42,428 bases of DNA from Rhodocyclaceae bacterium UBA2346 (lineage in GTDB: Bacteria; Pseudomonadota; Gammaproteobacteria; Burkholderiales; Rhodocyclaceae), in assembly GCA_002344625.1 (NCBI GenBank), contig DDUE01000087.1, forward strand, positions 1-42,428, read 5' to 3'. Under the pieces are notes generated by a model that saw only the letters and a program-made list of their open reading frames with translations, was not told where the DNA came from and did no database searches. The translations under genes and the position numbers were made by a program. The first letter of the stretch is position 1. The number at the start of each line of letters is the position of its first letter. Positions 5,109 through 34,698 of the stretch are shown piece after piece.

Positions 5109-7070
5109 TCAGCTGCCGATCACGCCACCGTCATCCTTGGTGATGACGACGGTCGCCGAACGCGGCAACGCGTTGCCGCCTTCCGGCCAGTGGCTGTCGC
5201 CGGCCTCGCCGGGGTGCTGGATGTTGATGAACATGGTCTTGCCGTCCGGCGTGAAGGTCAGACCGGTGACCTCGCATTCCTTGGGCCCGACGAAGAAGCG
5301 GCGGATTTCCTTGCTGACCGGGTCGGCGCACAGCATCTGGTTGTTGCCCTGGCCTTCGTATTCGCCGGCATTGCTGTAGTTGCCGTCGGTTTGGATCCAC
5401 AGCCTGCCGAAGGCGTCGAAGCCGAGGCCGTCCGGGCTGTTGAAGGTGTTGTCGGCGGTGATGTTGGCCGAACCCGACTTGAGGTCGCTGCGGTCGGTGT
5501 ATCTGACCGGGTTGCCGGCCAGCACGAAGATGTCCCATTCGAACGTGGTCGCCGCGGCATTGCCGCCGGTTTCGCGCCAGCGCACGATCTGTCCGTAGCG
5601 GTTGGCGGCGCGCGGGTTGGCGTCGTCGGTCGTGCTGCGCCCGGAGTTGTTGGTGAGGGTCACATACACTTCGCCCGAGCTCGGGTGCACGGTCACCCAT
5701 TCCGGGCGGTCCATCTTGGTGGCGCCCACCGCGTCGGCGGCCAGGCGGGTGAGGATCAGCACCTCGGCCTGGTTGGCGAAGCGGCTGTCGGCCGCCAGCA
5801 CCGGGTTGGCGGCCTTGTCGAGCAGGATCCACTCGCCGTCGCCCATGAAGTCGCCGCTGGCGGCACCATCCTTGAACTTCGCCACGTAGAGCTTGCCGCT
5901 GTCGAGCAGGGTGGCGTTGTCTCCGCCTTCGCGATAGACGCCATCCGACACGAACTTGTAGACGTAGTCGTTGGCCTGGTCGTCACCGGTATAGACGACG
6001 ATGCGCTTGTCGGCGGTCAGCGCGTAGGCGGCGTTCTCGTGTTTGATCCGGCCCAGCGCGGTACGCTTTTTCGGGGTCGAGCCGGGGTTGAAGGGGTCGA
6101 TCTCGACGATCCAGCCGAAGCGGTTGGATTCGTTGGGTTCCTTCACGTAGTCGAAGCGGTCGACGACCTGTTCCCAGCCGTAGAACGTGCTCGTGCCGGA
6201 CAGGCCATAGCGCTTCTGCGCGTCGTTGCGGCTGTCGGCGCCGGAGGTGGTGCCGAAGTAGTTGTTGAAGTTCTCCTCACAGGTGAGGTAGGTGTTCCAC
6301 GGTGTCCAGCCATTGCCGCAGTTGTTGAAGGTGCCGAGCACCTGCCGGCCGCTGGGGTCGGCGCTGGTCTTGAGCAGGTCGGCGCCGGCGGCCGGGCCGG
6401 TGAGCTCCATCGGGGTCGCGGCGGTGATGCGGCGGTTGTAGGCCGAGTCGAGCACGATCTCCCACTTGCCGGCGGTGTTGCGGCGGATGTGGATGACGGA
6501 CACGCCGTGCGCATTGATGGCCTTTTCGGCGCGTTCGGTGGTCATCGGGCCGGCGTCGTTGGCGCCGAACAGCCAGGCGTAGATGCCTGCGTCGGTCGTG
6601 GTGGTGTACTCGTGGTTCATCACCAGCAGGCCTTCGGTGTTGCTGTTGGCGAGCGGGAAGTAATGGATGCCGTCATGGTTGTCACCCACCTGGCGGGCCT
6701 GGGCCGCGGCGCTGTCGCTGCCGTCGCCGGCCCAGCTCGAACCGGGGCCGGCGGTGAACAGCGGCGCACCCCAGGGGGCCAGCACGGCGGCGGTGTAACC
6801 GGCGGCGATCGCCACGGTGTCCGCGGTCGAAATCGGAATCGCGGTGAATCCGAGCAGCGACGCGGGCGGAGTCGGTCCGCCGTCGTCCTTGCTCGAACTG
6901 CCGCCACAGGCCGCGAGCGGCCCGGCGAGGAATACAGCGGCGGACAGGCCGAGACCGGATTTCAGGAATCCGCGCCGGTTTACCGCCTTGTCGACCACCG
7001 CCTGGAAATGCTCGTTGGCCGAAGTATTGGTCGGGAGATCATCGGGGTCGATCTGATGAGACGCTTTCAT
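5109..7070 (-). CDS. PhoX family alkaline phosphatase (DUF839), Tat-exported
   Basis: This is a PhoX-type phosphatase; the family hydrolyses phosphomonoesters in the periplasm or at the cell surface and uses iron and calcium. The 653-residue protein has a Tat signal (NRRGFLK at 31-37 followed by a hydrophobic stretch). The signal ends in LAACG, so Cys55 could also be lipidated. Family blocks are visible: NHEYTTT, NNCGNGWTPWNTYLTCEEN, DRPEWVTVHPSSGEVY and NSPDGLGFDAFGRLW near the C-terminus. Length matches the family. It is monocistronic, with its own terminator. Substrate range and phosphate regulation cannot be read here; I saw no clear Pho box. Confidence 0.9.
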   Translation of the reverse strand: MKASHQIDPDDLPTNTSANEHFQAVVDKAVNRRGFLKSGLGLSAAVFLAGPLAACGGSSSKDDGGPTPPASLLGFTAIPISTADTVAIAAGYTAAVLAPWGAPLFTAGPGSSWAGDGSDSAAAQARQVGDNHDGIHYFPLANSNTEGLLVMNHEYTTTTDAGIYAWLFGANDAGPMTTERAEKAINAHGVSVIHIRRNTAGKWEIVLDSAYNRRITAATPMELTGPAAGADLLKTSADPSGRQVLGTFNNCGNGWTPWNTYLTCEENFNNYFGTTSGADSRNDAQKRYGLSGTSTFYGWEQVVDRFDYVKEPNESNRFGWIVEIDPFNPGSTPKKRTALGRIKHENAAYALTADKRIVVYTGDDQANDYVYKFVSDGVYREGGDNATLLDSGKLYVAKFKDGAASGDFMGDGEWILLDKAANPVLAADSRFANQAEVLILTRLAADAVGATKMDRPEWVTVHPSSGEVYVTLTNNSGRSTTDDANPRAANRYGQIVRWRETGGNAAATTFEWDIFVLAGNPVRYTDRSDLKSGSANITADNTFNSPDGLGFDAFGRLWIQTDGNYSNAGEYEGQGNNQMLCADPVSKEIRRFFVGPKECEVTGLTFTPDGKTMFINIQHPGEAGDSHWPEGGNALPRSATVVITKDDGGVIGS

Positions 7071-7174
7071 GCTGTGGCTCCGCTTCAGGGGTAAAGAAGA
7101 AAGAGCCGAAGTCTATGGAACCCTTGTTGCAGCAACGTGACCTTGGCGCGGCCGCGTCACGCGGCGGGCGCGGG

Positions 7175-7996
7175 CTAGCCCTGGCGCATGACGACTTCGC
7201 GCTGCGGGAAGGGGACGGTCAGGGCTTCTGTGTCGAACGCGAGCCTGATGCGCTCGAGCAGGTCGGCGCGCACGGGCCAGAAGTCCTCGGTCCGGACCCA
7301 GGGGCGAACGTTGATCGCGACGCAATGCTCGGCGAGCTCGGCAACCGTGACGACCGGCGCCGGTTCGGCGAGGATCCGCGGGTCTTCGCGCATCACCCGC
7401 CCGAGAACCCTCTTGGCATGGAGGAGATCGTCGGCATAGCTCACGTTGATCACGAGGTCGATGCGGCGGGTCGGCAGCGCGTTGAAGTTGATGATCCGGT
7501 CGTTGGCGATGTTGCCGTTCGGCACGATGATCACGCGATTGTCGGGGGTGCGGATGACGGTCGAGAAGATCCGGATTTCTTCCGGCACACCGGATACGCC
7601 GCCGGCTTCGATGAAATCGCCGACCTTGAAGGGCCGGAACAGGATCAGCATGATCCCCGATGCGAAGTTCGCGAGCGAATCACGCAGGGCGAGGCCGACC
7701 GCCAGACCGGCCGCGCCGAACACCGCGAGCATCGAGGTCGTGGGCACGCCGAGGTGGTCGAGGCCGGCGAGCACCACGACCGCAAGCAGGATCGCGTGAA
7801 TGATGTTGCCGAGAAAATGCACCAGCAAGGTGTCGACTTTGGCACGGGTAAGCACCATGCGGAACATGCGGGTGATGCGCCCGGCGATCCATTTGCCGAT
7901 GAACCAGATCGCGGCGGCGGTAAGAATTCGCAGCGTCCAGGGAATCACGATGAGATCGAAGAAGCCGGGCTCGGCGATGACCTTGAGGGAATCCAT
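7175..7996 (-). CDS. MscS-family mechanosensitive ion channel
   Basis: This is a small-conductance mechanosensitive channel that releases solutes on hypo-osmotic shock. The 273-residue product has three membrane segments at about residues 12-38, 58-80 and 88-110. The third is the Gly/Ala-rich pore helix (SMLAVFGAAGLAVGLALRDS). The MscS beta domain follows (FRPFKVGDFIEAGG, VIVPNGNIANDRIINF). Length is close to E. coli MscS (286 residues). It is transcribed alone. Confidence 0.93.
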   Translation of the reverse strand: MDSLKVIAEPGFFDLIVIPWTLRILTAAAIWFIGKWIAGRITRMFRMVLTRAKVDTLLVHFLGNIIHAILLAVVVLAGLDHLGVPTTSMLAVFGAAGLAVGLALRDSLANFASGIMLILFRPFKVGDFIEAGGVSGVPEEIRIFSTVIRTPDNRVIIVPNGNIANDRIINFNALPTRRIDLVINVSYADDLLHAKRVLGRVMREDPRILAEPAPVVTVAELAEHCVAINVRPWVRTEDFWPVRADLLERIRLAFDTEALTVPFPQREVVMRQG

Positions 7997-16375: not shown

Positions 16376-16840
16376 TCAAGGACTTACGCGCGGCATTTCG
16401 TTCGGCACCATGCCCACCGATGCAGCATCGAACCCGCCGAACAACACCTCCTGCTCGTCCCACGCCCACGGCAGTTCGTGGTTCTTCAGCCAGATCAGGC
16501 TGAGGGTGCGCGGCTGCTGCCCGGCGAGGATGGCCTGCACCACGGACGGCGCAAGCCGCGTGAGCCGCAGCAACTCGTTCACCGTGGTGGCGTGCAGACC
16601 TTCGCGTCGAGCGATTTCCGCGCCGCTTTCCACCGTGCCGTCGTCCAGCAGCCGCTGCCAATGAAACGCCCGCGCCAGCGCCGCCAAGATCGGCGCTTCG
16701 TATTGCGGTTCTTCGTCCACCACCACGCTACTGTTCGCGGGCAGCACCACCTTGCGAATGCCGCGTTTCAGAAACTTGATGGGGATGACCGTCGTCAGTT
16801 CCGACCCGCGCACCGGCGCGCCCGTCTGCTGGATGCTCAT
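16376..16840 (-). CDS. HTH protein encoded with the serine recombinase (ParB/KorB-like HTH)
   Basis: This 154-residue protein has a helix-turn-helix in the middle (ESGAEIARREGLHATTVNEL, about 84-103), followed by TRLAPSVVQAIL, as in ParB/KorB DNA-binding domains. No nuclease or ATPase motif is seen. Its ATG overlaps the recombinase stop by 4 bp, so it is made with the recombinase. Relatives next to such recombinases are often labelled resolvase-associated. A role as directionality or accessory DNA-binding factor is inference. A small perfect inverted repeat, GTCCTTG/CAAGGAC (16366-16384), lies across its 3' end. Confidence 0.7.
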   Translation of the reverse strand: MSIQQTGAPVRGSELTTVIPIKFLKRGIRKVVLPANSSVVVDEEPQYEAPILAALARAFHWQRLLDDGTVESGAEIARREGLHATTVNELLRLTRLAPSVVQAILAGQQPRTLSLIWLKNHELPWAWDEQEVLFGGFDAASVGMVPNEMPRVSP

Positions 16841-18195
16841 GCCGCTTCCTCCAGTTCCCGCAGTTCCGCCCCAATGCTGCCGGGTTTCAGTTCGCGCGCC
16901 AGTTCCGCCCAGCCCACGTCATGCCAGACGATGGACACCGCTTCAGCGCCGACGACCACCTTGCGGATCAGCAGTTGCGCGATGCGTCGTTGCTCTGCCG
17001 GATACAGCGCCTGCCACACTGCGCCGAGGTTGCGCAGCAGGGCCAGTACGACTTCGGGTTCATCGAGCTTCTCGCCCGATGTCCGCACCGAATCCCAGAC
17101 GGCCTGCACCATCTCCGGCGTCTTGAGCGCAGCGTGGATTTGCGCCAGCACCACGTCATCCAGTTGCCCCGCAGGAATCAGCCCGAGGGCGTGACGCTCG
17201 CCGAAGGCCTGCGTGCGCCGTGGCACGTAGTAGGCGTAATGCCTGCCGTCCGGCTTCCGCGTGAACGTGGTGTGCAGCTTCTCACCCTGATCCGTTTCGA
17301 CCAGTCCCGTCAGCAGAAACTCCGGCCCATTCCGATGTCGCGTGGCCGTTCCGTGGGCACGCTGGTTGTCCGCGAACACGGCCTGCACCGCGTTCCACAG
17401 TTCCGGTGCAATCAGGGCTTCGTGCTGACCCGGATACACCTTGCCCTTGTTCTTGTGCGCGATCTCGCCCCGATACATCGGATTGTTGAGCAGCTTGACC
17501 AGCGCGTTGCGGGTGAAAGCACAACCCTTGCGGCTGGTGATGCCTTCGCGCCGCAGCCAACGCACCACTTCCGTGGTGGAACGCAGTTCGGCAAACTTCT
17601 CGAAGATGCACCGGACGGTTTTGGCTTCGTCAGGTTCAATCCGCAGCTGCCGGTTTTCGACGCGGTAGCCCAAAGGCACGACGCCACCCATCCACAGGCC
17701 CTTGGCCTTCGACGCCGCGAACTTGTCGCGGATGCGTTCGCCCGTAACTTCGCGCTCGAATTGCGCGAAGGACAGCAGAATGTTCAGCGTCAATCGCCCC
17801 ATCGAAGTGGTGGTGTTGAACTGCTGCGTGACCGACACGAACGAAACGCCGTGGCGGTCGAACACGTCCACCATCCGCGCGAAGTCGGCGAGACTGCGTG
17901 ATAGACGGTCGATCTTGTAGACCACGACCACATCGACGCGCCCGGCCTCGATGTCCGCCAGTAATCGCCGCAATGCCGGACGTTCCATATTGCCGCCGGA
18001 GTAGCCGCCGTCCTCGTAGCCGTCGCCGACCGCGATCCAGCCTTCATTGCGCTGGCTGACGATGAAAGCGTGGCCTGCATCGCGCTGTGCGTCGATGGAG
18101 TTGAATTCCTGATCGAGCCGTTCGTCCGAGGACACGCGGCAATAGACGGCGCAGCGTTTGGGTGCAATCAGTGGCGTTGTGGCTTGCTTCCTCAT
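16837..18195 (-). CDS. Large serine recombinase (site-specific integrase)
   Basis: This protein is probably the integrase/excisionase of the island. I chose the ATG at 18195, which overlaps the stop of the DUF2924 gene, giving 452 residues (MRKQATTPLI...). The resolvase domain has the catalytic serine in YCRVSSDE (Ser22), VVVYKIDRLSRSLADF, and SMGRLTLNILLSFAQFERE. The recombinase domain follows (LWMGGVVPLGYRV, MYRGEIAHKNKGKVYPGQH). The zinc ribbon usually present in large serine integrases has no cysteine pairs here: the matching stretch reads LLTGLVETDQGEKLHTTF. That is a feature of this DUF2924-associated subgroup as far as I recall, and need not mean inactivity. Confidence 0.92.
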   Translation of the reverse strand: MRKQATTPLIAPKRCAVYCRVSSDERLDQEFNSIDAQRDAGHAFIVSQRNEGWIAVGDGYEDGGYSGGNMERPALRRLLADIEAGRVDVVVVYKIDRLSRSLADFARMVDVFDRHGVSFVSVTQQFNTTTSMGRLTLNILLSFAQFEREVTGERIRDKFAASKAKGLWMGGVVPLGYRVENRQLRIEPDEAKTVRCIFEKFAELRSTTEVVRWLRREGITSRKGCAFTRNALVKLLNNPMYRGEIAHKNKGKVYPGQHEALIAPELWNAVQAVFADNQRAHGTATRHRNGPEFLLTGLVETDQGEKLHTTFTRKPDGRHYAYYVPRRTQAFGERHALGLIPAGQLDDVVLAQIHAALKTPEMVQAVWDSVRTSGEKLDEPEVVLALLRNLGAVWQALYPAEQRRIAQLLIRKVVVGAEAVSIVWHDVGWAELARELKPGSIGAELRELEEAA

Positions 18196-18653
18196 CGGCC
18201 ACCGCCTTCCAGCCCGAAGAACCTCGGCCCCGACCAGTTCGTTCCCGTGATGCTGCGCGCCACGCCGGACAGGCTCTTGAAGCGTTCGCCGTTCAAGAGG
18301 TAGAAGCCGTCCGGCGCGACCGTGACGCGGTATTCCTGCCCATCCCATTCGCGCACCAGTGTGGTGCCGGGCATCATCCGTTGGCCGAGACTGCGCTTGA
18401 CCTTGCGGTCAGGCGCGCGTCCGACCTTGATCCTGGAATGCTGCTCGCCCACGTCGGCAAGGTGATCCTTGATCTTCTGCGGCAGGCCGCCCAGCGCCAC
18501 TTCCTGCAAGCGGTGGGCGAGGCGCGCTTCGAGGGTGCGGCGCGTGACCTTCTGCGGGCGGCGTGGGAAATGCTCATCCCACAGCCGCCACAGCGTATCG
18601 AGCGGCATCGTCGGCAAGGCCGCAAGGCGCGCCGTGATGGTTGAGTTCGTCAT
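18192..18653 (-). CDS. DUF2924 family protein
   Basis: The 153-residue product starts MTNSTITARLAALPTMPLDTLWRLWDEHF and contains RRTLEARLAHRLQEVALGG and LVREWDGQEYRVTV, as in DUF2924 proteins found beside serine recombinases of this type. The ATG at 18653 has GGAAG 8 nt upstream and is better than the upstream in-frame ATG at 18683. The C-terminal part (DGFYLLNGERFKSLSGVARS) resembles a small DNA-associated fold. Biochemical role is unknown; gene coupling points to recombination. Confidence 0.85.
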   Translation of the reverse strand: MTNSTITARLAALPTMPLDTLWRLWDEHFPRRPQKVTRRTLEARLAHRLQEVALGGLPQKIKDHLADVGEQHSRIKVGRAPDRKVKRSLGQRMMPGTTLVREWDGQEYRVTVAPDGFYLLNGERFKSLSGVARSITGTNWSGPRFFGLEGGGR

Positions 18654-24107: not shown

Positions 24108-24431
24108 ATGAAACGCTGCGTCGTAGGCATCCGCCGCCCTGAAGACCGGAGTCGTCCCGACACCGGAAGAAGCCAGCCTTCGGTCTGGTTTCCCTCGATG
24201 GCAACGATGGCCGCCGTGCTGTCCGAGGACAACCGCGCGCTGCTGCGCCTGATCCGCGAACGCAAGCCGAAGTCTCTGACGGCGCTGGCTGAACTGACCG
24301 GGCGGCATGTGCCCAACCTGTCCCGCTCGTTGCGGACGATGGAAGGCTACGGTCTGGTCAAGCTCGAACGCGAAGGTCACGGTATCGCGCCCGTTGCGTT
24401 GGCCACCGAATTCCTCGTTGTTTTGCGCTGA
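24108..24431 (+). CDS. Winged-helix HTH regulator at the head of the hsd operon
   Basis: The 107-residue protein has a MarR-like winged helix: MAAVLSEDNRALLRLIRERK, ALAELTGRHVPNLSRSLRTM, EGYGLVKLEREGHGIAPVAL. The WFPSM motif before it matches related regulators, so the frame begins upstream of the ATG at 24198. The first 25 residues differ from the usual N-terminus, and the true start is uncertain. Relatives are often antitoxin-like and sit beside a toxin gene; none is adjacent here. It ends 27 bp before hsdM and may control the operon. Confidence 0.75.
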   Translation: MKRCVVGIRRPEDRSRPDTGRSQPSVWFPSMATMAAVLSEDNRALLRLIRERKPKSLTALAELTGRHVPNLSRSLRTMEGYGLVKLEREGHGIAPVALATEFLVVLR

Positions 24432-24458: not shown

Positions 24459-27044
24459 ATGCCATCCGCCAAGCTCACTCTCAGTCGTCTCGAAAGCCTG
24501 CTGTTCACGGCCTGCGACGACTTGCGCGGCAACATGGACGCCAGCGAATACAAGGAATACATCTTCGGCATGTTGTTCCTGAAACGCGCCAGCGACCTGT
24601 TCGACCAGCGCCGCGAGGAAATCCGGCGCGAGGGCGAAGCCGCTGGCTTGTCCGCTGCCGACATCGCGCTCAACCTCGAAGACCCCGATCAGTATTCCGG
24701 CAAATACTTCTACGTGCCGCCGCGCGCCCGCTGGAACGAGCCGTGGACGGACGACGCGGGCAAGCAACAACCCGCGCTCAAGCACGTCAAGGAAAACGTC
24801 GGCTCCTTGCTCAACAAGGCATTGGCCGCGCTGGAAGAAGCCAACCCCGATGCGCTGGAAGATGTGCTGAAGGACACCATCAACTTCAACCGCAAGATCG
24901 GCCAGCACACGCTGGACGACGACACGCTGGCGGACTTCATCCAGAATTTCGAGAAGATTCCGCTGAAAGACGGCGACTTCGAGTTCCCCGATCTGCTCGG
25001 CGCGGCCTACGAATGGCTCATCAAATACTTCGCCGATTCCGCTGGCAAGAAGGCCGGCGAGTTCTACACGCCCGCCGAAGTAGTGCGCGTTTGCGTGGAA
25101 ATCTGCGACCCGCGCGAAGGCATGAGCCTGTACGACCCTGCCGTCGGTTCCGGCGGCATGTTGATCCAGGCGCGCGACTACGTGCGCGAACGCGGCGGCG
25201 ACTCCGGCGAACTGTCCCTCAACGGGCAGGAAAAAATGGGCACGACGTGGTCGATCTGCAAGATGAACATGCTGCTGCACGGCATCTCGCACGCCGACAT
25301 CCGCAATGCCGACACGCTGGCCGACCCGCGCCACATGGACGACCACGGCGAACTGCGCCGCTTCGACCGCGTGCTGGCCAATCCGCCGTTCAGCCAGAAC
25401 TACGCCAAGACCAAATCCAAGGACGACGGCAGCGGCGCGAAGAAGAAGGAACCCATCGCCTTCCCCGGCCGCTTCGCGGTGTGGATGCCGGAGAAAGGCA
25501 AGAAGGCCGACCTGATGTTCGTGCAGCACATGCTGGCCGTGCTCAAGGCCGATGGGCGACTGGCCACGGTGATGCCGCACGGCGTGCTGTTCCGTGGCGG
25601 CGAGGAACGTGAAGCGCGCCAGCACTTCATCGACAAGGGCTATCTGGAAGCCGTGATCGGCCTGCCCGCCAACCTGTTCTACGGCACCGGCATTCCGGCC
25701 TGCATCCTCGTGTTGAACAAGGCCGGCGCACACGAACGCCGCGACGTGCTGTTCATCAACGCCGACCGCGAATACCGCGAAGGCAAGGCACAAAACCACC
25801 TGCGCGCCGAGGACGTGGACAAGATCGTTCACGCTTACCGCGAAGGCCGCGACATTCCCGCCTACGCGCGTCGTGTGCCGGTGAGTGAAATCAAGGCTGA
25901 GGACTACAACTGCAACATCCGCCGCTACGTGGACAACGCGCCGCCGCCAGAGCCGCAGGACGTGCGCGCGCATCTGCATGGCGGTGTGCCGGTGACGGAA
26001 ATCGACGCGCTGCGCCGTATCTGGCATAACTACACGGGCCTGCGCGATGCCTGCTTCGTTGCCCGCAACGACGGCAGCGCCTACGCCGACCTCACGCCCG
26101 CGCTGGCCGACAACCGCGAGGGCAAACGCACCATCGCCGAAACCGTGAACCAGCACCCTGGCGTGCAGCAGGCGCAGGCCGCCGTGCTGCAAACGCTGGA
26201 AACGTGGTGGCAGCAACACCTGCCGCTGATCGAGGCCCTTGCGCCGGATGCCGATAACCAGCACGCCCGCCGCAGCAACGTCTATGAACTGCGCGCCACG
26301 CTGCTGGAAGGCATCGAGCGCACCTTCGCGCAGCACGCCTTGTTGTCGCGCTATCAAGTGCGCGGTGCCTTCGCCAACTACTACAAGCTGCTTGCGTCGG
26401 ACTTCAAATCCATCGCCGCCAGCGGCTGGGGGCCGGAACTGATTCCGGACGACGACATCCTGCAAAGCCAGTTCCCCGACATCCTCGCCACGCTGGAAAC
26501 CCAGCACGCGCGGCTGGCGGAGTTGCAGGCCTTGTTCGCCGCCGCGGGCGAAGAAGACTTCGAGGACACGGACGACACCGGCGTGCTGCCCGGTGATGAG
26601 GTGAAAACGCTCAAGGCCAGCCTGAAAGAGGCGAAAGGCAACGCCAAGGCCGCGAAGAAAGACCCGGCGCTCGGCGATGCGGAAAGCTTCCAGCGCGAAG
26701 CCGCGCGCATCGAGGCGCAACTGGCGCGGCACAAGCGGCTGGAAGACGAGGCCAAGAAGCTCAAGGCCGACATCCGCGCCACCGAAAAAAGCCGCGACGA
26801 CTTGGTGGAGAAGGCGCGCGAGAAGATCAGCCGCGATGAAGCGCGCAGCATCATCGTCGAGCGCCTGCGCAAGCTCTTGATCGACAGCTACCGCCAGTAC
26901 CTGCGCGCCGACCAGCGCGCGGCGGTGGCGGCGATTGAAAACCTGTGGGACAAGTACGCGGTGACGGCGAAGCAGATCGAGGCCGGGCGTGATGCGGCAT
27001 CCGCGAAGTTGCGAGAGTTCTTGGTGGAGTTGGGGTATGAGTGA
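24459..27044 (+). CDS. hsdM: Type I restriction-modification methyltransferase subunit HsdM, long form
   Basis: HsdM methylates adenine at the site chosen by HsdS and is part of the restriction complex. The N-terminal helical domain ([20 protein letters not shown]) is followed by the methyltransferase domain with SAM-binding motif DPAVGSGG (226-233) and catalytic NPPF (308-311). At 861 residues it is much longer than classical HsdM (about 530). The extra C-terminal 300 residues include a charged coiled-coil (about 705-800). The same long form occurs in some type I subfamilies. Its last codons overlap the hsdS start. Confidence 0.95.
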
Positions 27045-28368
27045 GTGGGCGACATTCTCACTGTCTCAAATCGCAACGATGCGGAAAGGGATCAGCTACA
27101 CATCCAGTGACTACGGGGTTGAAGATTCCGGGCATCCATTCATCACGATCAAATGCTTCGTCAAGGGCGGTGGCTACGAACCGACCGGAATCAAGTTCTA
27201 CGACGGCTTTTCGATTAAGACCGACCAACTTTCAGCAGGCGATGTCCTTTTTGCCGCAACCGACCTGACTCGTGCGGGTGACATTGTCGGCAGCCCGTTG
27301 CGTGTACCGGCTTTTAGCTCCCCCAAATCCGCGCTTGCATCAATGGACTGCGTACGCATCGAGCCGCTTCCAGAGAAATGCGACAAGGCATTTCTCTATC
27401 ACACGCTGATGCTGCCGAGCGTTCGGCGTCAGATGGTGGCGCTCTCCGCAGGCTCGACCGTCCTGCACTTGGATACCAAGAAAGTTCCGAACATCCGTGT
27501 CCGTATTCCGCTGGCCGTTGATGCGCAGCAAAAAATCGCCGCCATCCTCTCCAGCATCGACGACGCCATCGAACGCACCGAAGCCTTGATCGCCAAATAC
27601 CGGCAGATCAAGGCCGGGCTGATGCACGATCTGTTCACGCGCGGCGTGCTGCCCACCGGCCAACTCCGCCCGCCGCGCGAACAAGCCCCCGACCTCTACC
27701 GCGAAACGGCGATCGGGTGGATTCCGAAGGAGTGGGAAGTCAGAAAGCTCGGCACGATGGCAAAGATCGTTTCCGGCGTGACCTTGAGCAGCAAGGAAAC
27801 ACCGCCGAACTGGGTGACTGTGCCCTATCTTCGCGTTGCCAATGTGCAGGATGGCTACCTCGACCTTTCCGAGATTAAAACCATTGCCGTTCCGAGAGCC
27901 GAACTTGAGTTTCTGCGCTTGCTTCCCGGTGATGTGCTGATGAATGAGGGCGGCGACTTCGACAAGCTCGGTCGCGGCACGGTGTGGGCGGGCGAAATCG
28001 AAGATTGCATCCACCAGAACCATGTGTTCCGGGTTCGTCCAGAGCAAACGGCGCTGTTGCCGTGGTATCTGGCTTTCTATTCGGAATCGTCGTTCGGCAA
28101 AAAGTATTTCCTGCTGAGTTCCAAGCAGTCCACGAACCTGGCCTCCATCAACTCCACGCAGTTGAACGCCTACCCGATTGCACTGCCCGATTCGATGGAA
28201 CAGGCCCGCATCGTCGAACGGCTGCAAAAGATGAACAACCGGATTGAAAGCCTCAAAATCGATGCATCCAAACTGTCGCGGAAAAAACTCGGCCTGATGC
28301 AAGACCTGCTCACCGGCAAGGTGCCGGTGAAAACCGAACAACCCGAACTCGTGGAAACCGCCGCATGA
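27037..28368 (+). CDS. hsdS: Type I specificity subunit HsdS
   Basis: HsdS recognises the split DNA target. The ATG at 27037 overlaps hsdM by 8 bp and gives 443 residues beginning [18 protein letters not shown]. There are two target-recognition domains (about 1-150 and 225-380). Each is followed by a conserved helix: [20 protein letters not shown] with MHDLFTRGV, and [20 protein letters not shown] with MQDLLTGKV. Both halves look complete. The target sequence cannot be predicted from the protein alone. Confidence 0.93.
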
Positions 28369-28934
28369 CCACTGTTGCCATCCCCGCTTGGAATCCGCAG
28401 GGCTTGCTGCCGCCCATCGACGTGCTGAACCCGACCAGCGTCGAGCGTTCGCCGTATCGCGTGGCGCTGACGGATGTGATGGTGCGCTTCGCCACATCAA
28501 AGGAGCGCAGGCAAATCCTGCGCGGCTGGCTGGGCTACCGCGCCGCCCTGCATGGCATGGGCCTGACCGATGGTTTCCAGTGGCTCGACGGCAGTTTTCT
28601 GGAACAGGTGGAAACGCTGGAAAACCGCGCGCCGCAGGACATGGACGTGGTGACATTCCTGAATCCGCCCGCCGGTTTTGCACCATCGCAGCCGCAGATG
28701 GCCGTGCTGGACAATGGCGCGGCAAAACAGGCTTTCCGCGTGGACAGCTACCTCGTTGATCTGAACTTGCCTGCCGATGACCTGATCGAACGCTGCACTT
28801 ATTGGTACAGCATGTGGTCGCACCGCCGCAATCAGACTTGGAAGGGTTATCTTGAGGTCGATCTGAATCCGGCGCACGACCCGCAGGCACTCGATTATCT
28901 GAATCAACAAGACGCTTCTGGAGCGCAGCCATGA
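28365..28934 (+). CDS. DUF6932-like protein with nucleotidyltransferase-type motif
   Basis: The 189-residue protein opens with IPAWNPQGLLPPIDV, typical of DUF6932 proteins. It contains a pattern close to the nucleotidyltransferase signature: LDGSFLE (Gly76-Ser77) and, after 14 residues, DMDVVTF (Asp92, Asp94). A later acidic strand, YLEVDL, could supply the third carboxylate. Related folds include MNT antitoxins and other nucleotide-adding enzymes. The start overlaps the hsdS stop by 4 bp and its end overlaps the next gene by 4 bp, so it is built into the hsd operon. Enzymatic activity and substrate are unknown. Confidence 0.72.
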   Translation: MTTVAIPAWNPQGLLPPIDVLNPTSVERSPYRVALTDVMVRFATSKERRQILRGWLGYRAALHGMGLTDGFQWLDGSFLEQVETLENRAPQDMDVVTFLNPPAGFAPSQPQMAVLDNGAAKQAFRVDSYLVDLNLPADDLIERCTYWYSMWSHRRNQTWKGYLEVDLNPAHDPQALDYLNQQDASGAQP

Positions 28935-29860
28935 GCATCACACAACGCCATTTTCTGTTGGCCGAACGCACCGCCGTCAAGCGGATGCTGGACAAGTTGC
29001 CTGCCACGGCGATCCTGACCCGCATGAGCGACGAAGCGCGGCTGCGTGAAATCGAAGCCGAACTGGCGGCCTTGCCTGCGGACGAGCGCGCCCCTGCGCG
29101 CGCGCGCCTGACCTTCAACGGCATGCCGGTGATCGGCAGCCACGGCATCTTCGCAGACTTTGGCATGAAGGCGGTGAGCAGCTTCACCGACGCAGTGGCG
29201 ACCGTGGCGGCGTCCCTGTCCGCGCCGTTGGCGGCGATGGGGCCGATCCCGAACCGCGACCAGAACCAGTTGCTCATCACCAATACCGCCGTGGGTTCGT
29301 TCGGTTTCGAATTGGAGGAATACCGCGCGCAGGAACTTCTGGACGACGAAAGCGCGGTAGCGGTGGCGCTGGATCGCACCCAGAGCCTGTTGCAGGCCAC
29401 GCTGGGGCAAGACGACGAACTGGCCGACATCGCTTCGGAAACCGACCCGCGCGCGCTGGAGAAGGTGCGCGGCTTCCTGCGCGTGCTGGCGGACGCCGAG
29501 GCCATCTGCACGCTGCAATACGGCGACAAGGCCATGCGCTTTGCCGACCCCGGTCAGGTGCGCCGCAGTCTGGATCGGCTGGCCGCCGATAACCTGCGTG
29601 AGAGTCAGGAAACTCTGGAAGGTGAATTCGTCGGCGTGCTGCCGGTGGCGCGCAGCTTCGAGTTCAAGCTGACGGGCAGCGACGAGATCGTGCGCGGCAA
29701 GATTTTGCCGACGCTCGGCAACGTTGAAACACTCAATGATCACCTGCATCAGCGGGTGCGCGTCGAGGCGATGCGGACGCAAGTCGGCAATGGCCGTCCG
29801 CGCTTCCTGCTGACGCAGTTGCCGCAGTGGGCTGCCGACGCCGCGCCTGCGGGCGGTTGA
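28931..29860 (+). CDS. Unrecognised protein coupled to the DUF6932-like gene
   Basis: I do not recognise this 309-residue protein. The first third is helical and charged (LLAERTAVKRMLDKLPATAI, ARLREIEAELAAL). The middle holds TFNGMPVIGSHGIFADFGMK and the helical SFGFELEEYRAQELLDDESA. The last third looks beta-rich (LEGEFVGVLPVARSFEFKLT, VRGKILPTLG). No signal peptide, membrane segment, nuclease or ATPase motif. It overlaps the DUF6932-like gene by 4 bp and sits 25 bp before hsdR. I infer a two-gene module inserted between hsdS and hsdR. Confidence 0.7.
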   Translation: MSITQRHFLLAERTAVKRMLDKLPATAILTRMSDEARLREIEAELAALPADERAPARARLTFNGMPVIGSHGIFADFGMKAVSSFTDAVATVAASLSAPLAAMGPIPNRDQNQLLITNTAVGSFGFELEEYRAQELLDDESAVAVALDRTQSLLQATLGQDDELADIASETDPRALEKVRGFLRVLADAEAICTLQYGDKAMRFADPGQVRRSLDRLAADNLRESQETLEGEFVGVLPVARSFEFKLTGSDEIVRGKILPTLGNVETLNDHLHQRVRVEAMRTQVGNGRPRFLLTQLPQWAADAAPAGG

Positions 29861-29885
29861 GGTCGGATTTGGCGAGGGCGCAGGC

Positions 29886-32800
29886 GTGAGCGAATACACC
29901 GAAGTCGAGCGCCCGTTTCTCGACCAGCTTGCCGCGCAGGGCTGGACGGTGATCGACCAGGGCGGCGGTGTGCCGCAGGAAGCCGCGTCGAGCCTGCGCG
30001 GGCATTTCCGCGAATGGTTGCTGCCGGACGTGTTCGACGAGGCGGTGCGCGCCATCAATCGCACCGACGACGGGCGAGAGTGGCTCACGCCGCGCCAGTT
30101 GGAAGACCTGCGCGCGCAACTGCTGCGCCAGCCCAACCGTTCGCTGCTGGAAGCCAATGAAGCGGTGCAAAGCCTGCTGTTCAAGGCGCAGACCGATACC
30201 AACGAACTGACCGGCGAAGCCGACCCGGTGGTGAAGCTGATCGACTTCCATCACCCGGAAAACAACCGCTTCCACGCCATCAACCAGTTCCGCATCGACA
30301 CGCCGGGCAGCGTCAAGAATTTCATCATCCCCGACATCGTGCTGTTCGTGAACGGCATTCCGCTGGTGGTGGTGGAGTGCAAGAAAGGTTCGGCCACCTG
30401 CGCCAACCCGATGGCCGAAGCCTTCGAGCAGTTGCAACGCTACATGCGCCGCCGCAAGGCCACGGAGGATGCTGGCCTGAAGGAAGGCGAGCCGCGCCTG
30501 TTCCATCCCAATCTGTTCGTGGTGCGTAGCTGCGGCATCGAGGCCGACTACGGCACCATCACATCGGGCGAGGAGCATTTCTACGCTTGGAAAACCCTGC
30601 ATCCGCAAGACGATGCGGCGCTGGCCGGAATGAACGCGCAGCAGCAGCTCGTGGCCGGGATGCTGGACAAGGCCAATCTGCTGCAAATCCTGCGCACGTC
30701 CAGCGTGTTCATGGACACCGACAGCGGCCCGCGCGTGAAAGTGGTGTGCCGTTACCAGCAGTTCCGCGCGGCGGGCCGCATCGTGCAGCGGCTGCGCAGC
30801 GGCCAGACGCCTACCGAACGCAGCGGCGTGGTGTGGCACACGCAGGGTTCCGGCAAATCGCTGACGATGGTGTTTCTGGCGCGAATGCTGCGAGCCAGCC
30901 GCGACTTGGCTGACTTCAAGATCGTGCTGGTGAACGACCGGCAGGACCTGGAGGAACAGCTTGGCGACACCGCCACCCTGATCGGCGGGCGCGTGAACGT
31001 GATCGAAAGCCGCGCGGGGCTGCGTCAGCATCTGGCGACGGACAGTTCGGACATCAACATGGTGATGATCCACAAGTTTCAGGAGCAGAAGCAGACGCTG
31101 CCCAACCATGTGGCCGAAGCCTTGGGGACGTATCGCGCGCTGCCTGCGGGCAAGACCTTTGGTGAGGTGAATGCGTCTGATCGCATCCTGCTGATGATCG
31201 ACGAGGCGCACCGCACGCAAGGTTCGGACTTGGGCGACAACCTGTTCGAGGCCTTCCCGAACGCCACGCGCATCGCCTTTACCGGCACGCCGCTGATTAC
31301 CGAACGCCACGGGGAGCGCAAGACGCACCGGCGCTTCGGCGACTACATCGACACCTACCGCCTGATGGACGCGGTGAACGACGGCGCGACGCTGCAAATC
31401 CTCTACGAGGGCAAGACCGCCGACAGCGCCTTGAACGAGAAGGCGGCATTCGATATCGCCTTCGAGGACTTGTTCAGGGAGCGCAGCGAAGAAGAACTGC
31501 TGGCGATCAAGAAGAAATACGGCGCAACCGGCGACATTCTGGAGGCCGAGCAGCGCATCGAGGCCATCGCCCGCGATCTGGTGAACCACTACATTGACAA
31601 CATCCTGCCCAACGGCTTCAAGGCGCAGGTGGTGTGCCATTCCAAGCTGGCCTGCATCCGCTACCGCAACGGCATCGAGAAGGCGCTGGCCGCGCGCATC
31701 GAACGCGAGGCGGTGCGCGACACGCCGGATGCGGAACTTCTCCAGCGTTTGCGTTTCCTCAAGGCCGTGGTGGTGATTTCCAGCGACGGCACCAATGAGG
31801 CGGCCTACGTCACCCACGCGCGCAAGCAGGCGCAGCGCATGAACGCGGTGGAAAACTTCTGCCGCAACTTCGACTTGGACGACCCGGATGCCGAAAACAC
31901 CGGCATCGCCTTTTTGATCGTCTGCGACATGCTGCTGACCGGCTTCGATGCGCCCATCGAGCAGGTGATGTACATCGACAAGAAGCTGCGCGAGCACACG
32001 CTGTTACAGGCCATCGCCCGCACTAACCGGGTGAAGAAGGGCAAGCAGCGCGGCTACATCGTGGACTACATCGGCCTTGCCAATCACTTGACCGAAGCCT
32101 TGAGCCTGTACGCCGCCAGCGACGAATTGCAGGAGTTACAGGACGGGATGAAGATCATCACGTCCGAACTGCCGGTGCTAGAGGAACGTTATCGCCGCCT
32201 GCTGCAACACTTCGCGGCGCTGGGCGTGAAGGACATCGAAGCCTTCGCCGAAGGCAAACTGGCGGGCGTGGAAGCCGATGCCGCCGTCGCACACGCCGCT
32301 GTCACGGCTTTGAAGGATGAGAAGAAGCGCGCCGACTTCGAGGTGTATCTCAAGAAGTTCCTGTCCAGCCTCGACATCGTGTTGCCGAACGCGGCGGCGC
32401 AGCCGTACCGGATTCCGGCCAAACGCTTCGGCTTCATCCTGCAAGTTGCGCGCGAACGCTACAAGGATGAAAGCCTGAACCTCGGCAGCGCGGGCGAGAA
32501 GGTGAAGGCGCTCATCAACGAGCACTTGGTGAGCCTGGGCATCAACCCGAAGATTCCGCCCATCGAACTGTTCGCGCCTGATTTCCTCGACAAACTGGCC
32601 GCGCACGCGGGCGGCAACGACGAAGCCAAGGCCAGCGAGATGGAGCACGCCATCCGCAAGCACTGCACCGTCCACCACGACGAAGACCCGGCCTTCTATG
32701 CCAGCCTGTCGAAGAAGGTGGACGAACTGATCGCGCGCCACGGCAAGGAATGGGATTTGCTGGCCGAGAAACTCACGGAACTGCGGCAGGAAGCCGTCGC

Positions 32801-33146
32801 CGGACGGCGGCACGGCGAGGACGGCATGAGCCGCGAAGCAACGACCTTCCATGATTTCGTTACGCAGGTTGGCTTCGCCAGCGGTAAGGTCGATGATGCC
32901 GACAAACCTGCTTTCAAGGCACTGATGACCAAGACCGTGGACATCCTGCAAGGCACCATCGCCAGCATCGACTTCTGGCAGAACCCCGACAAGCAGAAGC
33001 GCGTGCGCAGTCTGCTCAAGACCGAGATCGCCAAGAGTGACATCGAGGAACTGAAAGCCAACCGCGAGCGCGTGGCCATCGAAATCATGCGGCTGGCCAA
33101 GAATCGGCACGATGAGCTGACCCGTGTCGGGCGGGAGGGCGGCTGA
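29886..33146 (+). CDS. hsdR: Type I restriction endonuclease/translocase HsdR
   Basis: HsdR cleaves unmethylated DNA after ATP-driven translocation. The start is GTG at 29886. The 1086-residue protein has the PD-(D/E)xK nuclease site PDIVLFVNGIPLVVVECK (Asp150, Glu164, Lys166). The SF2 motor has TQGSGKS (319-325), DEAH (439-442), AFTGTP, and QAIARTNRVKKGKQRGYIVD in motif VI. A helical C-terminal domain follows. All key residues are present, so it should be active. It is separated from hsdS by the DUF6932-like pair, which is unusual. Confidence 0.96.
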   Translation: MSEYTEVERPFLDQLAAQGWTVIDQGGGVPQEAASSLRGHFREWLLPDVFDEAVRAINRTDDGREWLTPRQLEDLRAQLLRQPNRSLLEANEAVQSLLFKAQTDTNELTGEADPVVKLIDFHHPENNRFHAINQFRIDTPGSVKNFIIPDIVLFVNGIPLVVVECKKGSATCANPMAEAFEQLQRYMRRRKATEDAGLKEGEPRLFHPNLFVVRSCGIEADYGTITSGEEHFYAWKTLHPQDDAALAGMNAQQQLVAGMLDKANLLQILRTSSVFMDTDSGPRVKVVCRYQQFRAAGRIVQRLRSGQTPTERSGVVWHTQGSGKSLTMVFLARMLRASRDLADFKIVLVNDRQDLEEQLGDTATLIGGRVNVIESRAGLRQHLATDSSDINMVMIHKFQEQKQTLPNHVAEALGTYRALPAGKTFGEVNASDRILLMIDEAHRTQGSDLGDNLFEAFPNATRIAFTGTPLITERHGERKTHRRFGDYIDTYRLMDAVNDGATLQILYEGKTADSALNEKAAFDIAFEDLFRERSEEELLAIKKKYGATGDILEAEQRIEAIARDLVNHYIDNILPNGFKAQVVCHSKLACIRYRNGIEKALAARIEREAVRDTPDAELLQRLRFLKAVVVISSDGTNEAAYVTHARKQAQRMNAVENFCRNFDLDDPDAENTGIAFLIVCDMLLTGFDAPIEQVMYIDKKLREHTLLQAIARTNRVKKGKQRGYIVDYIGLANHLTEALSLYAASDELQELQDGMKIITSELPVLEERYRRLLQHFAALGVKDIEAFAEGKLAGVEADAAVAHAAVTALKDEKKRADFEVYLKKFLSSLDIVLPNAAAQPYRIPAKRFGFILQVARERYKDESLNLGSAGEKVKALINEHLVSLGINPKIPPIELFAPDFLDKLAAHAGGNDEAKASEMEHAIRKHCTVHHDEDPAFYASLSKKVDELIARHGKEWDLLAEKLTELRQEAVAGRRHGEDGMSREATTFHDFVTQVGFASGKVDDADKPAFKALMTKTVDILQGTIASIDFWQNPDKQKRVRSLLKTEIAKSDIEELKANRERVAIEIMRLAKNRHDELTRVGREGG

Positions 33147-33868
33147 TGGAAGTGCGTCAGGCCAATTTTCGTCAAGTGGGCGACATCGAATACCACTTGC
33201 TGCCGGGGGCGGATCGCAAGACCACCGACATCGTGATCGAACGCGATGGCGCGATCTGCGTGCGCGCGCCGCGCCAGATGACACCGGAACAGGTGGACGA
33301 CACCGTTTTCAGCAAGCGGATGTGGATTTACCGCAATCTGGCCGAATGGCGTGATCTGAATGCCGCTCGTGTAGCACGCGAATGGGTCAGCGGCGAATCC
33401 TTCCTTTACCTGGGCCGCCACTACCGGCTTGATCTGGTGCGGGAGCAGGATGAACCGCTGAAGTTGAAGGATGGCCGCTTCACCCTGCTGCGCGCCGTGG
33501 TGGAAAGTAGCGGCCAAGCAGCCGCGCAAGGCGCGTTCGAGGCGTTCTACCGCAGCAAGGGACTGCCCCGGCTGCGGGAGCGCGTGGCGCACTACGCGCC
33601 CAAGGCGGGCGTGCAGGCCGGGGCGGTCGAGGTCAAGGAACTGGGCTACCGCTGGGCATCCTGCCTGAAGAACGGCGAACTTCACTTCCACTGGAAGTGC
33701 CTGATGGCTCCGCCGACCATCATCGACTACATCGTCGTCCACGAACTGTGCCACCTGCGCCACCGCGACCACACCGAAGCATTCTGGAACGAGGTGGACA
33801 AGGTGCTGCCCGATTACCGGGAGCGCAAGGAATGGCTGCGGATTCGGGGCGTGGGTCTGAATCTGTGA
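33146..33868 (+). CDS. YgjP-like (DUF45) zinc metallopeptidase
   Basis: The 240-residue protein has the zinc motif VHELCHLRHRDHTEAFW: His189, Glu190 and His193, with His199 as the likely third ligand. These match YgjP/SprT-like metallopeptidases of the DUF45 type. Its ATG overlaps the hsdR stop by one base. The family is often found directly downstream of hsdR, where its role is not established; turnover of HsdR or another partner is a possibility. No signal peptide, so it is cytoplasmic. Confidence 0.9.
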   Translation: MEVRQANFRQVGDIEYHLLPGADRKTTDIVIERDGAICVRAPRQMTPEQVDDTVFSKRMWIYRNLAEWRDLNAARVAREWVSGESFLYLGRHYRLDLVREQDEPLKLKDGRFTLLRAVVESSGQAAAQGAFEAFYRSKGLPRLRERVAHYAPKAGVQAGAVEVKELGYRWASCLKNGELHFHWKCLMAPPTIIDYIVVHELCHLRHRDHTEAFWNEVDKVLPDYRERKEWLRIRGVGLNL

Positions 33869-33885
33869 AGCCGGATGTGATCTCG

Positions 33886-34698
33886 ATGTCTGACCTTACA
33901 GGCAGTGACCGCCGGAAACTTGAAAAGCTGCTTGGGATGAGCGGTGGGTACGTGCTCAACTTCTCCGACCGCACGTTCGGCGAATTCTTCGACGAGTATC
34001 GCGTCGAGATCGACGCCGATCAATACCGGACGCGCGGCACATCCAAGGCCAATCGCTTGCGCACGCATTGGGAGTTGGATGCAAACCATGTGGTTGGGCG
34101 CGTCATCGGCGGCCTGATCGACTACGCGGGCGAGGAGCAGTGTTTCGGCGACAGCAACCCCGTGCTGGTCGATGACTGCCGCAAGATTGCCCAGCGCCTG
34201 CTCAGCGACCAGCCCGTCGCCGAATTGGATGCACTGGCCGCGACTGCCGACGAACGCGACTTCGAGGTGGTGGCCGAACATGTGCGCGAGGCCATCGAGA
34301 AGAACCAGCCAGAGGGGGCGCTGGATCGACTGCACACCTTCGTCATCAAGTTTGTTCGTATTGCCTGCGAGCCTCATGGCATCGAGATCAACCGCGACAA
34401 GCCACTGCACAGTGTATTCGGCGAGTACGTCCGCACCCTGCGCGATGGCGGGCACCTTGAATCGGTAATGACAGAGCGCATCCTCAAATCCAGCATCTCG
34501 GTTTTGGAGGCGTTCAACGATGTCCGCAACAACAAGAGCCTCGCACACGACAACCCCATCCTCAACTACGAGGAAAGCCTGCTGATCTTCAACCACGTTG
34601 CCGCCTCGATCCGGTTCATCAAGGCGCTGGAGGTGAAGATCAAGGCACAGGCCATAACGAAGGCGTCCGGCTTGGAATCAGACGACATCCCGTTTTAG
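33886..34698 (+). CDS. Abortive-infection-type protein with HEPN motif
   Basis: I chose the ATG at 33886 (MSDLTGSDRRKLEKLLGMSG), giving 270 residues; an in-frame GTG lies at 33877. The N-terminal block GYVLNFSDRTFGEFF is conserved in several abortive-infection proteins. The C-terminal part (about 185-250) resembles the Abi_C domain: ERILKSSISVLEAFNDVRNN followed by KSLAHD. The R-x6-H arrangement (Arg214, His221) is a HEPN ribonuclease motif, so RNA cleavage on phage infection is plausible. It is the last gene of the operon, 17 bp after the metallopeptidase. Confidence 0.78.
   Translation: MSDLTGSDRRKLEKLLGMSGGYVLNFSDRTFGEFFDEYRVEIDADQYRTRGTSKANRLRTHWELDANHVVGRVIGGLIDYAGEEQCFGDSNPVLVDDCRKIAQRLLSDQPVAELDALAATADERDFEVVAEHVREAIEKNQPEGALDRLHTFVIKFVRIACEPHGIEINRDKPLHSVFGEYVRTLRDGGHLESVMTERILKSSISVLEAFNDVRNNKSLAHDNPILNYEESLLIFNHVAASIRFIKALEVKIKAQAITKASGLESDDIPF

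Follow-up and report, generated by a model that had tools for sequence, protein, structure and literature searches.

What is a pair of genes doing between hsdS and hsdR of a type I restriction operon? The question is posed by a 42,428-nucleotide stretch of DNA from Rhodocyclaceae bacterium UBA2346 (contig DDUE01000087.1), referred to throughout as the window. The first gene, NT (28365..28934, plus strand), encodes a 189-residue DUF6932 nucleotidyltransferase-like protein and the second, PART (28931..29860, plus strand), a 309-residue partner; both begin with ATG. The end of hsdS at 28368 overlaps the start of NT by a 4-bp ATGA, NT overlaps PART by another, and hsdR begins with GTG at 29886, 25 bp after the end of PART. 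A preliminary description of the locus had reported this arrangement, which the open reading frames (ORFs) and the Pfam neighbours HsdM, HsdS and HsdR reproduce exactly. It had offered two functions, a controller of HsdR or a separate defence or toxin-antitoxin (TA) unit carried within the operon. The comparisons described here favour the second: the pair is probably a self-contained, toxin-like unit of defence, rather than a part that controls the DNA cutter. Our best explanation as a whole, to which we assign a probability of about one half, is that the pair is mobile cargo forming a TA or abortive-infection module, with NT as effector and PART as its restraint.

Cargo between hsdS and hsdR

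Compared across its relatives, the hsdS-hsdR gap of this operon family behaves as an exchangeable site at which varied cargo, often toxin-like, docks. Two operons whose HsdR is 83% identical match the window at the nucleotide level through hsdM and the conserved parts of hsdS, up to the slot. In blastn, similarity ends at 28331 and restarts at 29874 for one contig (L133), and ends at 28332 and restarts at 29892 for the other (L134), leaving 28332..29892 as the stretch not common to these operons. In their slots, one genome (G111) carries two DarT-family genes and a macrodomain gene, and the other (G019) a Zeta_toxin-family gene along with a DarT scrap recognised by eye. Some HsdR match was present in 127 of 200 relatives, and the chromosomal gap was read for the seven best non-self matches, all of which hold cargo. 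The remaining five contain a trypsin-like protein and a 129-residue ORF (G165, HsdR 66%), a phosphoesterase-STAND protein (G093, 49%), a DUF1016/YhcG nuclease (G177, 41%), by eye a relative of that nuclease (G119, 41%), and an Abi_C gene with an Mrr-type nuclease (G183, 32%). A 1020-residue calcineurin-like phosphoesterase with a STAND NTPase occupies the hsdS-hsdR slot of L136 (7079-10141).

Plasmid relatives comprised 21 records at E 1e-100; four from Synechocystis were taken as one, of which one was read, and one record was unannotated, leaving 17 that were judged. Cargo is present in seven of the 17 and absent from ten. In six of the seven cargoes the annotation names a toxin, an antitoxin or Fic: HigB and a regulator with Fic; a nucleotidyltransferase, DUF86 and PIN (Synechococcus PCC 7502); a short DarT-family gene; AbrB with death-on-curing; AbiEi/AbiEii with Fic (Vibrio casei); and Fic alongside two hypothetical genes. 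The remaining cargo is a hypothetical protein. The pair itself was seen in none of the 24 gaps read (seven chromosomal, 17 plasmid), and a plasmid search with PART returned four records, other than these plasmids.

Contexts of the pair

Relatives of PART were found at 28 genome-contig loci, on four plasmids, on eight IMG/VR contigs and at 11 further genome loci, 51 in all; this set contains two pairs of identical rows and a few further near-identical ones. Two fragments, G188 and G235, were left out, G052, G251 and G333 duplicate L003, L009 and L010, and L035 is the same contig as L003. The loci were gathered via PART and therefore form a PART-first sample. NT lies directly 5′ of PART in 49 of 50 assessable loci; L010 has PART without NT, and L019 begins at a contig edge and is not assessable. 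NT is truncated or split beside a whole PART in L003, L023 and L026. In L004 and L022 it is cut by the contig edge, the L004 frame also ending early, and the NT proteins of L027 and L063 fit the NT profile only from positions 33 and 14. In an NT-first sample, DUF6932 was present in 11 of 249 genomes, eight of them with PART, one (G322) with a partner of the PDC-M63B kind (PDC, Phage Defense Candidate in PADLOC; PMC12429752) and two (G309 and G317) with a 485-486-residue partner, which in G309 (L094) has helix-turn-helix (HTH) plus M78 peptidase domains. DUF6932 genes paired with the 485-486-residue partner in place of PART lie at L094:4367-6291 and L095:130-2038.

The occurrence of PART is rare and scattered: it is found in 6 of 200 relatives and 12 of 398 phylum-sample genomes (its own genome and one fragment counted each time), and none of 50,697 phage records contains a relative (E 1e-5). 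One copy of the pair is on a contig labelled Candidatus Methanoperedens, an archaeon (L012), beside a NOV_C helicase, a DUF4062 protein and a sacsin-like protein.

With the window included, hsdS lies 5′ of the pair in 7 of 52 loci (the window, L007, L024, L025, L026, L029 and L060), and hsdR lies downstream in six of these seven, the L024 contig stopping soon after PART. L023 has hsdR downstream with no hsdS seen, and L016 has a piece of hsdM upstream. Seven is a lower bound, because recognition relied on locus-built profiles and varies with the length of the contig. The 4-bp hsdS overlap recurs in L025 and L029, and the type I operons that enclose the pair belong to more than one HsdR family. 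In the other 45 loci no type I operon can be recognised from the DNA seen, several contigs being short. Their neighbours include a type ISP enzyme (L005), MmeI (L015), mod/res pairs (L008-L010), an AbiEi gene (L002, and L003 by a locus-built profile), Cas9 (L056) and a TIR protein (L064), and other copies lie among plasmid- or prophage-type genes, on IMG/VR contigs and on plasmids, two of which are typed as conjugative, beside an integrase gene. The preliminary description would have been refuted by a survey in which the genes were seldom adjacent or had no link to restriction loci; half of that outcome was seen, the genes being neighbours almost throughout but mostly not seen in type I loci.

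On the PART tree the type I label changes five times, and all five changes are forced by strongly supported branches; the count stays at five if L023 is taken as type I and rises to six if L016 is as well. The pair is a mobile unit whose genes stay together through unrelated contexts. Because the pair is mobile and the slot exchangeable, we consider it very probable that it is independently mobile cargo, and control of HsdR is unsupported.

The closest kin, in L002 and L003, are 86.5-86.7% identical in nucleotides over 28285-29886 of the window. Around these copies no hsdM or hsdR match was found, though the last 33 HsdS residues (28285..28368 in the window, plus strand) are recognisable at 64-70% identity. 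The orphan hsdS tail lies at L002:7337-7435 and L003:2141-2239, 5′ of the pair and beside an AbiEi_4 gene. It would seem that the cassette departed from a type I operon and took a scrap of hsdS along.

Best identities among relatives are 89-90% for NT and 92-94% for PART, and against the L002 copies the nonsynonymous and synonymous divergences (dN/dS) are 0.060/0.506 and 0.054/0.533, a ratio of about 0.1 in each case. These values argue against chance ORFs, and purifying selection acts on both genes between the contexts of the window and L002. Comparisons with L005, L006 and L007 were saturated, and L029 yielded no value.

Three further loci show other arrangements. L023 (5736-9736) holds PART with a 3′ piece of NT, a 343-residue gene, an AbiEii-like gene (E 0.00018, narrowly missing the Pfam cut-off) and hsdR, apparently two modules stacked in one slot. 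In L056 (3043-10017) the pair lies near Cas9, adjoins a second small nucleotidyltransferase gene and is close kin of the type I copy in L060. L060 itself has an Abi_C gene between PART and hsdR (7022-7789), whereas in the window Abi_C follows the metallopeptidase instead.

The two proteins and related systems

NT belongs to Pfam DUF6932 (PF22014; 106.4 bits against a gathering cut-off of 27, E 2.2e-30), bearing out its earlier DUF6932-like label, and no paper found in our literature search names this family. Members of the nucleotidyltransferase superfamily carry the motif hG[GS]...D-x-[DE] plus a third carboxylate. NT has Gly76-Ser77 (28590..28595), at the start of a GS-x14-DxD pattern, Asp92-Met-Asp94 (28638..28646) and Asp127 as candidate third carboxylate (28743..28745), all on the plus strand. 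In a 50-row alignment, two rows of which are gapped at the first four catalytic positions, Gly76, Ser77, Asp92 and Asp94 are identical in 48/48 rows with letters, confirming the residues singled out in the preliminary description, and Asp127 is present in 50/50. Judged by motif, the active site of NT is intact. Foldseek places HI0073 in rows 1-2 and MNT/HEPN complexes in rows 3-5, a coherent result at E values all above 0.02. The nucleotidyltransferase nature proposed earlier is upheld by the motif; the fold match is weak. Sequence searches of the PDB returned only marginal, unrelated-looking rows for NT (best E 0.93) and for PART (best E 0.021). Profile-profile comparison of NT with AbiEii (seven sequences) and Polbeta (13 sequences) by hhalign gave no signal, and as the positive control, AbiEii against Polbeta, gave equally none, the comparison was uninformative.

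PART matches no family in Pfam or NCBIfam, as the preliminary description had found it without assignment. Its AlphaFold2 (AF2) model (pLDDT 82.6) predicts a helical N-terminus and a C-terminal OB-fold-like domain at about residues 222-300 (29594..29830, plus strand), for which the matching OB-fold rows include SilF and CusF.

The PDC candidates of PADLOC reportedly originate from a preprint dealing with defences that lie embedded in immune systems; two of the papers searched name PDC-M63 or PDC-M32. The closest catalogued kinds, as judged by profiles, are PDC-M63 on the NT side and, faintly, PDC-M32 on the PART side. In PDC-M63 a DUF6932-type nucleotidyltransferase likewise stands directly 5′ of a 309-residue partner (L093). 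Window NT matches PDC-M63A at E 4.9e-9, as do 25/25 NT rows at E ≤0.01, and hhalign aligns it with the NT proteins of L093-L095 at 97% (E 3e-11), although NT has 189 residues in the window and 152 in L093. PART of the window, by contrast, has no PDC-M63B profile match, with 1/32 PART rows reaching E 0.0056. Against 13 PDC-M63B sequences the signal is weak (hmmsearch --max, E 0.0066), and against two PDC-M63B sequences hhalign is co-linear over 162 columns and not significant (E 0.12). A PDC-M63B family search of 143 genomes gave no match, and as its 14 controls were equally without match it was uninformative; a viral scan with the L093 partner gave no relative.

PART has a faint match to PDC-M32A (E 3e-6), confined to residues 113-257 of its 309, and 20/32 PART rows match as well; hhalign with three PDC-M32A sequences gives no significant alignment (E 0.07). 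Three of the four PDC-M32A loci examined lie inside type I operons (L096-L098, not L099), but PDC-M32A has about 380 residues and is placed between hsdM and hsdS, and PDC-M32B has no match to the NT profile, NT matching PDC-M63A profiles only. Full membership of either candidate is ruled out by profile, as the other half of each fails. The PDC-M32A genes of L096-L098 belong to another type I family, with PDC-M32B identified in L096, where a TIR-like PDC-S35 gene directly follows hsdS. The gap between hsdM and hsdS has the look of another slot for cargo.

The AbiEi/AbiEii (type IV TA) system resembles the pair in having a nucleotidyltransferase module, and AbiEi/AbiEii occupies the same slot in Vibrio casei. 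However, for the window proteins Pfam (to E 1) gives no match to AbiEii or AbiEi; in PADLOC, 1/25 NT rows touches AbiEii (0.0028) and 1/32 PART rows AbiEi (0.0057).

The operon resembles in gene order the RRDM island of enteropathogenic Escherichia coli (EPEC RptR-RMS-DarTG-M48; PMC12255303), in which an upstream regulator is followed by hsdM, hsdS, a two-gene cargo, hsdR and a metallopeptidase. The cargo there is DarTG2, part, in this same slot, of an island that protects against phages (same source). An RptR-family regulator with TAGCTA sites marks that kind of island, and the window regulator is known by HTH family match only. That regulator (24108..24431; PF25212, E 1.1e-19) precedes hsdM (24459..27044; N6_Mtase, HsdM_N) and hsdS (26989..28368; Methylase_S, E 1.4e-25), whose true start is probably further in than that of the listed ORF. 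After NT and PART follow hsdR (29886..33146; HSDR_N, SWI2_SNF2, T1R_D3-like, with TIGR00348 above cut-off), a YgjP-like metallopeptidase (33146..33868; PF01863, E 9.3e-60) and an abortive-infection C-terminus (Abi_C) protein (33697..34698, scanned from 33736 on; PF14355, E 3.9e-12), all by Pfam apart from TIGR00348, and all on the plus strand. A promoter and terminator scan showed no excess over shuffles. Close to this restriction island, a type IV secretion protein gene (PF07996, 35784-36461, minus strand) suggests a conjugative element, and the start of an ORF at 16837-18348 (minus strand) resembles a serine recombinase by eye only.

Proposed roles of NT and PART

The separate unit envisaged by the preliminary description gains support from the travel of the pair through many contexts and from the other toxin and defence genes found in the slot. 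Because of its position there the pair is grouped with TA and abortive-infection modules, which we consider likely, even though nuclease, protease and phosphoesterase genes are found there as well. We infer the choice of toxin between the two proteins, and likewise the target of NT. Since only NT has a conserved catalytic site, it is the one likely enzyme of the pair and is therefore favoured as effector, with PART as restraint, an allocation that we make tentatively. NT would attach a nucleotide to its target, a tRNA-like RNA or a protein, and PART would hold NT inactive and either sense infection or present the target. Through translational coupling to hsdS the pair would be made together with the restriction operon and serve as a backup should restriction fail. 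It is possible, at somewhat longer odds, that the pair represents a new nucleotidyltransferase class of TA or abortive modules, in which the target of DUF6932 (tRNA or other RNA) would be selected, and its activity restrained, by an OB-fold partner that is an ancient relative of PDC-M63B and PDC-M32A, the whole spreading by insertion into defence operons.

Several points weigh against our best explanation. The type I label is somewhat clustered on the PART tree (shuffled labels average 6.7 changes, and 13/500 are as low as five), suggesting some co-inheritance with the type I context. The slot is empty in the ten plasmid relatives noted above, 4/7 chromosomal cargoes are nucleases, proteases or phosphoesterases and not TA families, and many loci of the pair lack an identified defence gene nearby. 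The pattern of NT lost and PART kept is biased, since loci were gathered by PART, and errors of assembly can produce the same picture. Since OB-like barrels have metal or protein ligands as well, nucleic-acid sensing by PART is a guess. Deletion of PDC-M63AB in E. coli NILS69 caused no change for 10 phages (PMC12409345), which counts against a broad defence role, although the variant differs and the phages were few. Lastly, the support for this particular pair comes from comparison and prediction.

The main rival reverses the roles. HEPN toxins, which include DUF86, carry a conserved R-x4-6-H motif, and in HEPN/MNT (MntA-HepT) systems a small nucleotidyltransferase likewise stands beside its partner; PART would then be the toxin and NT an antitoxin that inactivates it by attaching nucleotides. 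The leading Foldseek rows of NT, the smaller size of NT and the nucleotidyltransferase-DUF86 pair in the slot of Synechococcus PCC 7502 all fit, as does an R-x4-6-H pattern somewhere in 43/52 PART sequences. Yet those Foldseek rows have E values above 0.02, and in PART no His column is conserved at 95% (best 31/52 rows), Arg65 and His71 occur together in 11/52 rows and not in the window copy, and no HEPN profile matches. On aligned motif and profile, a HEPN identity for PART was rejected. Moreover, PART persists where NT is damaged or missing (L003, L010, L023 and L026), as expected if PART is harmless alone. We therefore consider reversed roles unlikely.

We also think it improbable that the pair is purely an addiction module, stabilising mobile elements without phage defence. 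Its presence on plasmids (two typed as conjugative), beside an integrase gene and on IMG/VR contigs, the type IV secretion gene in the window and the negative phage test of PDC-M63AB (PMC12409345) are all in keeping with such a role, but its position beside several unrelated restriction systems points to defence, and the two roles are compatible. A CBASS-like (cyclic-oligonucleotide-based antiphage signalling) circuit, in which NT makes a nucleotide signal or modifies PART as the signal, is very improbable, as NT has only 189 residues with no recognised effector domain alongside, and PART has no known ligand-binding or effector family. Finally, control of HsdR or restriction through modification of HsdR or an RNA would suit the tight coupling with hsdS (the 4-bp overlap recurring in L025 and L029), the closeness to hsdR in the window and the nesting in operons of more than one HsdR family, but we hold it to be highly improbable and dropped it as best reading, given that operons with 83% identical HsdR lack the pair and swap other cargo into the slot, ten plasmid relatives have no cargo at all, most pair loci show no HsdR (45/52 not being recognisable as type I) and the context changes along the PART tree.

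With NT-PART read as toxin-like cargo, a pair that had no explanation within its restriction operon becomes a module open to test. The swapping of cassettes at fixed borders extends an earlier report of DarTG2 in the hsdS-hsdR gap (PMC12255303). If the proposed mechanism is true, DUF6932 would gain a function, and the PDC-M63 and PDC-M32 candidates a common logic.

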